The position numbers and the translations under genes are program-made. DNA of 44,152 nucleotides from a virus: IMG/VR virus record IMGVR_UViG_3300049222_000326, positions 1 to 44,152 of that record, one strand, 5' to 3'. Every line of letters begins with the position of its first letter. The first letter of the stretch is position 1. Positions 12,121-34,319 of the stretch are shown here, piece by piece. The notes under the pieces were generated by a model, which saw nothing but the letters and a program-made list of their open reading frames with translations, was not told the origin of the DNA and did not search any database.

Positions 12121-12650
12121 CTATCGCCGCATTTTGGCGCGTTGCTGTGAACGCTCTTGCTCTTCCCCTTTAACTGCATAATATGCAGCGTAATAAATCA
12201 GCTCCGCATCGGTTAGTTCCGTGCGAAGCCGACTAACAGTCATTCCTAATTCGCAGGACAAGAAAAACTCAAAATTGAGCCACTTGTCCTGCTTCAGTCG
12301 TTTTTTGCCTCGTCAATGTCAGGGTCCGTGCTGACGCCAAACAAGAACAGCTCAAGATCATTTAACACCGTTTCAGGCAGTCTGCGTTGCAGTTTCGCGG
12401 CATCAGCAGGCGCAAAGGCTTTGGTTCCATCCTCAAGTTCTGCCATTTGGCAAAGCATCTGCGTGCTGATGTCCAATGCTTCTTCAGTACCAGCAAGACT
12501 TGAAGCTTTTTTGCGATCTGCACGAGTGATGGGCTTGAAATACAGATCCGTCAGCTTTTCACCGTCTGCATTCTTTAGCTCAAATTTACGGCGTTGGTTC
12601 AGGTCGAACGCCTCAGTAAGAAGGTCAACCGTTCGCTTTTGCGGTGCCAT
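12121..12650 (-). CDS. Tail assembly chaperone GT-type, -1 frameshift product
   Basis: A -1 shift at the A AAA AAC heptamer (12300-12306) joins the first 117 residues of the 118-residue chaperone to 59 more in the overlapping frame, giving 176 residues. The extension reads RLKQDKWLNFEFFLSCELGM and continues TVSRLRTELTDAELIYYAAY, the hallmark of T-type chaperone extensions (the CELGMTVSRLR motif). It ends at 12121, 24 bases before the tape measure start. As in lambda G/GT, the long form would bind tape measure protein and help polymerise the tube around it. This is established for the family and inferred here from the slippery site and the recognisable extension. Confidence 0.88.
12294..12650 (-). 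CDS. Tail assembly chaperone G-type, zero-frame product
   Basis: The 118-residue protein ends EAKND at the stop at 12294. It has the compact, acidic/basic mixed character of short tail chaperones (FELKNADGEKLTDLYFKPIT, AADAAKLQRRLPETVLNDLE). It lies between the tail-tube gene and the tape measure, where lambda-like G genes lie. Its last codons hold the slippery heptamer producing the longer form. The ATG follows directly on the T-tract of an intrinsic terminator (12652-12679), so expression depends on readthrough from the abundant tail-tube transcript or on a separate start inside it. Confidence 0.85.
   Translation of the reverse strand: MAPQKRTVDLLTEAFDLNQRRKFELKNADGEKLTDLYFKPITRADRKKASSLAGTEEALDISTQMLCQMAELEDGTKAFAPADAAKLQRRLPETVLNDLELFLFGVSTDPDIDEAKND
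12300..12306 (-). promoter_or_regulatory. Slippery heptamer A AAA AAC for -1 ribosomal frameshift
   Basis: On the minus strand the codons GCA AAA AAC GAC TGA end the short chaperone. A AAA AAC is a canonical X XXY YYZ heptamer in the correct register and lies one codon before the stop. Slipping back one base opens a 59-codon frame that encodes a family-typical chaperone extension. I did not identify a clear downstream stimulatory pseudoknot. Confidence 0.88.
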
Positions 12651-12651
12651 T

Positions 12652-12679
12652 AAAAAAGCGGGCCAAACTATGACCCGCT
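12652..12679 (-). terminator. Intrinsic terminator/attenuator after tail-tube gene
   Basis: Read on the minus strand, AGCGGG pairs with CCCGCT (12674-12679 with 12657-12662) across an 11-base loop and is followed at once by six T residues. The T-tract ends one base before the chaperone ATG at 12650. It would stop part of the transcripts after the abundant tail-tube gene and let fewer through to the chaperones and tape measure. Confidence 0.75.
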
Positions 12680-12708
12680 AACAGTAGCACTAAACGCCTA
12701 AAAGTTCA

Positions 12709-31659: not shown

Positions 31660-32001
31660 ATGACCCTGCAAGCAAGCGGCATCATCCGCATCCTGGGTGA
31701 CATCGAACTGAAAAACGTCGGTGACACCACCGTCGCCAAGTTCTACGGCGGCATCAACGAAGGTAAAGACAAAAACGGCAACTGGATCAACAACGCCATC
31801 GACGTTGAAGTGTGGGGCCGTTCCGGTGAAGTCATCAAGGAAAAGATGGGTCAAGGCGACAGCTTTTATGGCATCGGCAAGATCGTCATGAACGAATGGG
31901 AATCTGACGGCGGCAAACGTCGCAAGCACATTTTCAAATGTGGTCGCTTTGAATTCCTGCCCCGCATCAGTGATACTTCAACCGGTGAAGTCCCCTTCTG
32001 A
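31660..32001 (+). CDS. ssb: Single-stranded DNA-binding protein (OB fold)
   Basis: From the ATG at 31660 the 113-residue protein has an OB-fold pattern: GIIRILGDIELKNVGDTTVAKFYGGINEG, NNAIDVEVWGRSGEVIKEKM and a final KHIFKCGRFEFLP. The acidic-aromatic tail GEVPF resembles the short C-terminal tip of SSBs that recruit partners. It follows the HTH gene by one base and lies with exonuclease, annealase and RusA. It would coat single strands in replication and annealing. Confidence 0.75.
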   Translation: MTLQASGIIRILGDIELKNVGDTTVAKFYGGINEGKDKNGNWINNAIDVEVWGRSGEVIKEKMGQGDSFYGIGKIVMNEWESDGGKRRKHIFKCGRFEFLPRISDTSTGEVPF

Positions 32002-32018
32002 TTAACTGACCTTCATAA

Positions 32019-32053
32019 GCAAGGCTGATAGCCTTTGCGTTATTCAGCCTTGC
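32019..32053 (+). promoter_or_regulatory. Switchable hairpins before sigma factor start
   Basis: A segment AAGGCT (32021-32026) can pair with AGCCTT at 32030-32035 (short hairpin) or with AGCCTT at 32046-32051, extended to a perfect 10-bp arm GCAAGGCTGA / TCAGCCTTGC (32019-32028 with 32044-32053). The two pairings exclude each other and the longer one ends two bases before the GTG start at 32055. No Shine-Dalgarno is visible. This could be a translational attenuator or a protein-binding operator. Confidence 0.5.
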
Positions 32054-32054
32054 C

Positions 32055-32984
32055 GTGACTGATTCATTCAAGTTTTACCTAGACAACATCGGTAAGTTTC
32101 CGCTGCTTACTGCTGATCAAGAAATCGAACTGTCGCGGCGAATCGTTGCGTGGCAAGAACTTGACGAGCAACGCAAAGAAATAACCAACCCGCCACCTCT
32201 GACGACGGCAGAGAAGCGTGTCATTCGATCTGGTGAGCGTGCGCGGCAACAACTAATCAACAGCAACCTGCGACTGGTTGTGAGCCTTGCACGCAAGTAT
32301 GCAAACCGCATTCAAGGTACGGGTCTAGAACTTGCTGATCTATGCCAAGAGGGCTGCATTGGTCTTGCACGCGCTACAGAGAAGTTCGACGGCACTCGTG
32401 GCTACAAGTTCTCGACGTATGCGTATTGGTGGATCCGACAGAGCATTTCACGGTCGATCGATCATCACAGCCGGATGATTCGCATTCCGACCAACACCAT
32501 CGAAAACATCAACCGGCTGGCAACGTGGTCGAATCAGTTTCATCAGCTAAACGGCAGGGCTCCATCACTGCAAGAAATGGCGGATCACGTCGAACGCAAG
32601 CCTGAAGAACTGATGATGTGGTTTGAGCGTTCAACACCGACACGCAGCCTTGATGCGCTTTGTCACGAAGACGGATCGCCGTTGATGAATCAAATTGCCG
32701 ACACGTCCAAAGATTCTGACGTTGTTAGCCACGTCATCAAGTCAGAAGAAGAGGAAAAGCTCGGTCGTGCCATCAACAAGCTGACAGACCGTGAATACGA
32801 CGTGCTCACGCGGTACTACTCAGGCACTAAAGGGATGCCGTTGGCGCACATCGGTGCAGAACTGGGCATCTGTCGCGAACGCACCAGGCAAATTAAAAAC
32901 CGTGCATTAAAGAAGCTGCGACTAATTGCGGCGCAAGATCACACGCCACCAAGGGCGTCGGACGGTCTTAACCGGTTCGAGTAA
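32055..32984 (+). CDS. Sigma-70 factor, cyanobacterial group 2 type
   Basis: The 309-residue protein starts at GTG and carries regions 1.2 to 4.2: DSFKFYLDNIGKFPLLTADQEIEL (1.2, residues 3-26), NLRLVVSLARKYANR (2.1-2.2), YKFSTYAYWWIRQSISRSI (2.3-2.4, residues 117-135), RMIRIPTNTIENINRL (3.0) and GMPLAHIGAELGICRERTRQI (4.2, near residues 265-285). Region 1.1 is absent, like alternative cyanobacterial sigmas. A phage sigma could redirect host RNA polymerase to late promoters. A two-way hairpin lies just before the start. Tail overlaps an opposite-strand gene by 63 bases. Confidence 0.92.
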   Translation: MTDSFKFYLDNIGKFPLLTADQEIELSRRIVAWQELDEQRKEITNPPPLTTAEKRVIRSGERARQQLINSNLRLVVSLARKYANRIQGTGLELADLCQEGCIGLARATEKFDGTRGYKFSTYAYWWIRQSISRSIDHHSRMIRIPTNTIENINRLATWSNQFHQLNGRAPSLQEMADHVERKPEELMMWFERSTPTRSLDALCHEDGSPLMNQIADTSKDSDVVSHVIKSEEEEKLGRAINKLTDREYDVLTRYYSGTKGMPLAHIGAELGICRERTRQIKNRALKKLRLIAAQDHTPPRASDGLNRFE

Positions 32985-33549: not shown

Positions 33550-33949
33550 GTTCGACGGTTAGTTTACTGCCCGCCCAACCTGGGTCCGCCCACCCGGCGA
33601 GAGCGTGATCATACCCGGCACGCGCACGGGACGATTTAAGGACGAATTGTGCGCTGATTGTGTTCGGCAGGTTGAACGTTTCGCGGGTCTCGCCTAGTAC
33701 AAACTCGCCAGGGTCAAGCAGCCACGGGTTGTCTTCGGTGTGCTCTGAAATATCGACCCTTACCAAGTCAAAATTGCTCGGGTCTTCAACCATAATGTAA
33801 GGCCCCAAAACAACATCCAAAGAGGCAGGGTTAAGCAGATCCAAAATAAAAGGTTCGACCATAGGCGAATCACCTTCGCAGCGACTACGGATCTGCCAAT
33901 CAGCAAGAACACCCACCGTTTCGTAATTATGCTGCAGCAAGATTATCAC
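33371..33949 (-). CDS. dCTP deaminase/dUTPase-like protein
   Basis: The 192-residue protein has the dUTPase/dCTP-deaminase fold pattern: NPASLDVVLGPYIMVEDPSN (typical of the family's N-terminal strand), the SSRARAGYDHALAGWADPGW motif (residues about 112-131) and LTVELKNNRRYHPLPLYPGLKIGQMVF. The SSxARxGxxH...AGWxDPG motif is the strongest evidence. It would reduce dUTP and balance nucleotide pools. It overlaps the HNH gene by four bases upstream and an opposite-strand frame at its 3' end. Confidence 0.75.
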   Translation of the reverse strand: MIILLQHNYETVGVLADWQIRSRCEGDSPMVEPFILDLLNPASLDVVLGPYIMVEDPSNFDLVRVDISEHTEDNPWLLDPGEFVLGETRETFNLPNTISAQFVLKSSRARAGYDHALAGWADPGWAGSKLTVELKNNRRYHPLPLYPGLKIGQMVFHWMDETPVLSYPDQRGGAHYMNHQTVMPDIAVSRSA

Positions 33950-34257
33950 CCATCAATCCATTTTTCAATCCATTGCTCTCGATAATTGTCGTGAAAAATT
34001 TGCCGTTGATACCAGTCGCGCCAGTCTTGGTGGCCCTTTGAGCTATTACAACCAAGACAGCAACTTACAAGGTTGTGTTTGACTGTCAGGCCGCCGTTTG
34101 CTTTCGCTTCTACATGATCAAGCGTTACATCACGCTCTGATAATTCACGGCCGCAATATGCACAGGACCAACCCCATGCATTGTGAATTGAGCTGCGAAA
34201 TCGTTCCTTAGCTTTTTTGCGTGGAACTAAAATCGTCTCGTCGATTCTATGTTCCAT
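33946..34257 (-). CDS. HNH endonuclease
   Basis: The 103-residue protein is a clear HNH nuclease: zinc-binding CAYC at 32-35 and CLGC at 67-70, catalytic TLDHVEAKANGG with D47/H48, and HNLVSCCLGCNSSK with N62. A Trp/Lys-rich C-terminus follows. It may aid packaging or act on host DNA; HNH partners of terminase are known in other phages, but this one lies far from terminase. It overlaps the deaminase-like gene by four bases (ATGA). Confidence 0.9.
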   Translation of the reverse strand: MEHRIDETILVPRKKAKERFRSSIHNAWGWSCAYCGRELSERDVTLDHVEAKANGGLTVKHNLVSCCLGCNSSKGHQDWRDWYQRQIFHDNYREQWIEKWIDG

Positions 34258-34319
34258 GCAGTTGCCTGATAGAAGTCATTGACCGACATCTGCAACTGCA
34301 AACATTGTATCTAGAACAA
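34258..34319 (-). promoter_or_regulatory. Gap with -10-like box before HNH gene
   Basis: The 62-base gap between the C39-like gene and the HNH gene contains TACAAT on the minus strand (34304-34309), five of six bases matching a sigma-70 -10 box. A weak -35 candidate (TTACGC) lies 15 bases further upstream, shorter than ideal. It could start transcription of the HNH and deaminase genes, but the evidence is slight. Confidence 0.25.

Follow-up and report, generated by a model that had tools for sequence, protein, structure and literature searches.

A conserved RNA hairpin with a probable nested promoter precedes the sigma factor gene of a cyanophage-like virus

Timing of translation by a hairpin with a nested promoter is best known from bacteriophage T4. 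There, the long transcripts of genes e, soc, 49, and I-TevI fold and stay silent, and translation of gene e and I-TevI proceeds from transcripts that start at late promoters and have no 5' arm (PMC3014915, PMC2988022). Cyanophages shape the productivity of oceans and lakes, and in the literature we found no account of how their sigma factors are timed. In this study, we analyzed a DNA stretch of 44,152 nucleotides (the window), positions 1 to 44,152 of the 44 kb, cyanophage-like virus record IMGVR_UViG_3300049222_000326. A conserved RNA hairpin, probably with a promoter in it, was found directly before the sigma factor gene.

The minus strand of the window carries siphovirus-like tail-tape, portal, terminase, and head genes. 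A rightward module follows, with genes for RusA, an exonuclease VIII-like protein, Erf, a helix-turn-helix (HTH) protein, SSB, and the sigma factor. The SSB-like gene (31660–32001, plus strand; Pfam SSB, E = 1.3e-5, marginally short of the family cutoff; PHROG SSB, E = 7e-5) lies directly upstream of the sigma gene in this recombination operon, and 53 nt separate its stop from the sigma start. The sigma gene (32055–32984, plus strand) begins with GTG at 32055–32057 and encodes 309 amino acids. Pfam detected all four regions, 1.2, 2, 3, and 4, in the protein, and the alignment to SigA showed that the WWIRQ and RERxRQI motifs, which contact the -10 and -35 elements, respectively, are retained. 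These features and the PHROG match place the protein, as judged from its sequence, among the group-2-like sigma-70 factors. In the region-3 extended -10 helix, a conserved H is replaced by N; this H is presumably a residue of the helix that serves extended -10 promoters. The named phages closest by sigma protein were Synechococcus phages (40–44%), and the closest cellular sigma factors were those of picocyanobacteria and other cyanobacteria; therefore, the host is probably a picocyanobacterium. A search of host genomes gave only cyanobacterial sigma factors of at most 44% identity and no prophage copy of the window sigma clade.

Next to the sigma start, the arms GCAAGGCTGA (32019–32028, plus strand) and TCAGCCTTGC (32044–32053, plus strand) form a perfect 10-bp stem with 15 nt between them. 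An earlier note on this DNA had described this stem, and its arms were confirmed; the stem abuts the start, with one base (32054) rather than two between its end at 32053 and the GTG. The minimum free energy fold adds four inner pairs and reaches -20.2 kcal/mol, and a 121-nt stretch here had a folding z of -3.4. None of 33 gene leaders in the window is more stable than the sigma leader, which shares the top rank, and an equally stable fold is reached by 0.8% of random 48-mers drawn from the window. Four perfect 10-bp stems with a loop of 3–20 nt were counted in the window, against 0–4 in ten Markov simulations; such a stem alone is not rare by chance in 44 kb. No Rfam family matched the hairpin. 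A covariance model found one sense-strand match per genome, with weak reverse-strand shadows at the same site, and a family of repeated hairpins was rejected. The note had also pointed out that no Shine-Dalgarno element is visible. Indeed, there is no such 4-mer ahead of the sigma start; however, 27 of the 34 window genes checked lack one and only seven carry one, so its absence is not special here and was discarded as a sign of regulation.

Two other hairpins of the window, both on the minus strand, were recorded. One at 34258–34310, GCAGTTGC...GCAACTGC (-20.2 kcal/mol), adjoins the ATG of an HNH endonuclease gene (33946–34257), persists in L235, a more distant sequence (-22.7), and resembles the start-hiding hairpins of T4-group homing endonucleases. 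The other, a terminator-like hairpin AGCGGG...CCCGCTTTTTT at 12651–12680, immediately precedes the ATG with which the gene at 12294–12650 begins.

Subsequently, the leader was compared among relatives. IMG/VR gave ten more distinct sequences, nine by protein search and one (L085) by motif, and the comparison set consisted of 11 distinct sequences including the window. The sigma proteins of L001 and L002 were near-identical to that of the window, and the others showed 56–61% identity where measured. A loose degenerate pattern applied to IMG/VR returned chance matches; a crude check left L177 as the sole new locus with the sigma start, and L177 is the L001 contig already in the set. Between the SSB stop and the sigma start, the 11 sequences align almost gap-free, and in all ten relatives a hairpin ends at the sigma start. 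Standard pairs of the 14-bp structure were formed in 84.4% of the cells, as against 22.7–53.9% when the partner strand was slid. Six stem pairs are altered on both sides, and the covariation score was reached by none of 500 shuffles. The cleanest compensatory changes were at columns 34-62 (AU to GC, in L007 only and against its close relatives), 35-61 (AU/GC), and 40-56 (UG/AU/UA). G-U wobbles occur at columns 40-56, 41-55, and 43-53, which favor pairing in RNA over a DNA dyad. Comparison of related phages for covariation had been proposed in the earlier note, and the stem passed it. The independent hairpin lineages number just three or four; covariation events are accordingly few, and the support is good without being massive. 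The hairpin before the sigma gene is a real, conserved RNA hairpin; its conservation with compensatory changes is the deciding evidence. By its folding energy, its distance of one base from the GTG, and its covariation, it is a stable RNA helix over the translation start region.

Two observations on the relatives concern their proteins. In L010, from position 1173, the sigma frame ends at about residue 250 with region 4.2 incomplete, possibly by a deletion or an assembly fault. The N-terminus of the ssDNA-annealing protein is of the Erf type in L085 (889–1491) and of another kind in L089 (3951–4607), with nearly the same C-terminal tail in both, as if a module had been exchanged inside a single gene.

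The hairpin also holds an element that resembles a promoter. The invariant block TGATAGCCTTTGC (32026–32038, plus strand) consists of an extended -10, with TG at 32026 and TAGCCT at 32029–32034, and TTGC. A -35-like hexamer, CTGACC (32006–32011, plus strand), stands 17 nt before the -10. In the ungapped register, its GAC is invariant in 11/11 sequences; the hexamer is TAGACA or TAGACC in relatives, and the overall forms are CTGAC(C/T) and TAGAC(A/C/G). The block TGNTANCCTTTGC, with the extended -10 form TG-N-TANNNT, is invariant in all members, as is the CUUUGC of the hairpin loop (11/11). Outside the arms, the GAC of the -35 and TGNTANCCTTTGC at 17-nt spacing are the main conserved elements, and the spacer varies. 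The -35/extended -10 block sits in the 5' arm and loop. The common distance between a -10 and +1, about 7 nt, would place the predicted transcription start downstream of it, at 32041–32043 (plus strand). TAGCCT and TACCCT differ from TATAAT in the middle positions, and a consensus promoter scan made no call on this -10 in the window, L003, or L010; because of this, we only infer promoter activity from the sequence of the block.

Seven related records have the same layout ahead of the exonuclease start, with TTGC(A/G)G or TAGCAG as the upstream hexamer, a spacer of 17 nt, and TGTTACCCT; part of it may be coding there, and the TG is absent in L005; the window's own exonuclease leader lacks the TGTTACCCT element. 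Of 20 matches to TGNTA[CG]CCT, 17 were before sigma and exonuclease genes. The motif was not enriched beyond these genes, and it was rejected as a genome-wide phage promoter; no regulon could be defined from it. Elsewhere in the window, at 33945 on the minus strand, TAATCT with TTGAAA 17 nt upstream is a good candidate for an extended -10 promoter before a dCTP deaminase gene; the candidate is present in G001 and G002 too.

The extended -10 was then sought before more distant sigma genes, with 30 sigma lineages defined by N-terminal identity under 80% and 139 other ORF starts of the same loci as controls. TGNTANNNT was found 20–26 nt before the start in nine of the 30 lineages and at two of the 139 control starts (p = 2e-6). 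With the hairpin clade, the source of the pattern, excluded, it preceded the sigma start in six of 27 lineages (p = 2e-4). Where the intergenic gap measured 25 nt or more, seven of nine lineages carried it, and where there was no such gap, two of 21 did. In the cultured phages KBS-S-2A and S-CBS1, the element reads TGTTAGGCT and TGGTACTTT, respectively, and stands 24 nt ahead of the annotated sigma start in both, whereas no extended -10 of this kind was found before the sigma start in S-CBS3, S-LBS1, or P-SS2. Since there are cyanophages with the promoter element but no such hairpin, the hairpin is not essential for cyanophage sigma genes. At L312 1441–1503, a TGTTACCAT extended -10 lies inside a strong hairpin of different origin (-28.3 kcal/mol), whose arm includes and pairs over the sigma ATG; the nearest relatives lack this hairpin, and we therefore treat it as anecdotal.

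A promoter nested in a translation-blocking hairpin between the SSB and sigma genes is, in our judgment, the best explanation of these findings, and we hold it to be somewhat better than an even chance. RNA that reads through from the recombination/SSB operon would carry both arms and would fold into a hairpin of 10–14 bp one base before the GTG, so that sigma would be poorly translated. An internal promoter, with the -35 CTGACC, 17 nt, and the extended -10 TGATAGCCT, would start RNA near 32042. This RNA would have only the 3' arm and hence no hairpin, and sigma would be translated from a short leader of about 13 nt without a Shine-Dalgarno element. In this way, the early operon would no longer set sigma output, which would depend on the promoter of the sigma gene itself. 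Promoter activity, RNA start, read-through, ribosome blocking, and sigma timing are steps of this model that we infer. In folding predictions, the 12 nt that precede the start became more open when the 5' arm was removed: openness went from 0.17 to 0.68 in the window, from 0.37 to 0.74 in L003, from 0.37 to 0.79 in L007, and from 0.19 to 0.74 in L008; there was no rise in L010, and the start codon itself gained no predicted openness in L008 or L010.

The hairpin may instead be an intrinsic terminator of the SSB operon, in which case an overlapping promoter would make sigma and there would be no control of translation. A T-run of 5–7 T follows the hairpin in L003, L004, L005, L007, L009, L010, and L085, and a terminator scan reported it in L003 and L010 as terminator-like, with 11 pairs; in most relatives, the T-run is at least as compatible with an intrinsic terminator as with the nested promoter. 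The scan, however, made no call in L009 or the window, and L008 has CTTCTTT after the stem. Furthermore, the window, L001, and L002, which have the longest stem, have no T-run (TTGCC-GTG): a U-run straight after the hairpin is lacking in the window RNA (UUGCC-GUG) and present in relatives such as L003 and L010. The hairpin is thus retained where the T-run is lost, and we consider a pure terminator possible but doubtful. Both the nested-promoter and the terminator readings insulate sigma from the upstream operon, an end that the hairpin may also serve in T-run relatives by terminating transcripts that read through.

Binding of a protein to the dyad or to its transcript would be another way to regulate the gene. 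The inverted repeat is centered on the promoter and its short core GCTG/CAGC is invariant, as would suit a DNA operator around the -10 for a dimeric regulator, possibly in autoregulation. The arms, however, vary by compensatory pair changes and do not keep their sequence, G-U wobbles that break a DNA dyad are retained, and no further dyad copies were found in the window or relatives; this reading seems improbable to us. We would give slightly less credence to an RNA operator, in which the CUUUGC loop would bind a phage protein (SSB or sigma) that represses translation, as likened to T4 gp43 and RegA repression at their targets. The invariance of the loop is consistent with it, but a promoter better explains both the similar block before the exonuclease gene and the extended -10 at the same distance before distant, hairpin-less sigma genes. 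The earlier note had read the leader as an attenuator or RNA switch with mutually exclusive hairpins. The AAGGCT at 32021–32026 is complementary to both AGCCTT copies (32030–32035 and 32046–32051), and the window sequence allows either pairing. The alternative 6-bp pairing, however, has -6.0 against -20.2 kcal/mol, 14 kcal/mol weaker, and it cannot form in the L003-like relatives, which carry TACCCTTTGC in the loop, unable to pair with AAGCTG. With the alternative weak and not conserved, and without an Rfam family, two competing conserved structures were rejected, and such a switch is scarcely credible. The AGCCTT copy in the loop appears better explained as part of the conserved extended -10 block than as a pairing partner. 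The suggestion that the hairpin may delay sigma translation finds support in the covarying stem; its attenuator or switch form does not.

If the nested promoter is real, it provides a concrete, testable control element for a cyanophage sigma gene and directs attention to an extended -10 promoter that recurs ahead of such genes and is open to mapping in cultured KBS-S-2A and S-CBS1. We also considered, as an unlikely extension, that the sigma factor itself recognizes the TGNTANCCT extended -10 in the hairpin, which would give a self-reinforcing switch. The read-through RNA would be silent, a first trickle of sigma would fire its own nested promoter, and the hairpin-free RNA would then lock the phage into a sigma-driven program; sigma would also recognize the similar promoter before the exonuclease gene in relatives. 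If this were true, cyanophages would have joined autoactivation of sigma to start hiding of the T4 type.

To judge by its anatomy, the window element works like the leader of T4 gene e (lysozyme), a likeness that does not establish membership in the class of T4-type start hiding, and we claim no homology to the T4 leaders. In gene e as well, a hairpin on upstream-initiated RNA hides the start and a promoter lies within the hairpin region (PMC3014915, PMC2988022). The window gene differs in that it encodes a sigma factor and has no Shine-Dalgarno element; its putative promoter is of the extended -10 sigma-70 type, in contrast to the T4 late TATAAATA box. If the reading is true, the gene e arrangement extends to a transcription regulator in an unrelated, mostly Shine-Dalgarno-free phage group. 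The homing-endonuclease genes Aeh1 mobE and T4 segB are likewise free-standing, with a hairpin-hidden start and a promoter close by (PMC2988022), and they differ from the window sigma gene in gene class and promoter type. The cyanophage group-2 sigma genes of KBS-S-2A, S-CBS1, S-CBS3, and P-SS2 encode the same protein family and, unlike the window, lack the hairpin. Most relatives resemble an intrinsic (Rho-independent) terminator in having an 11-bp hairpin and then a T-run; the window clade, in contrast, has no T-run, its loop holds the invariant promoter-like block, and the start codon follows immediately.
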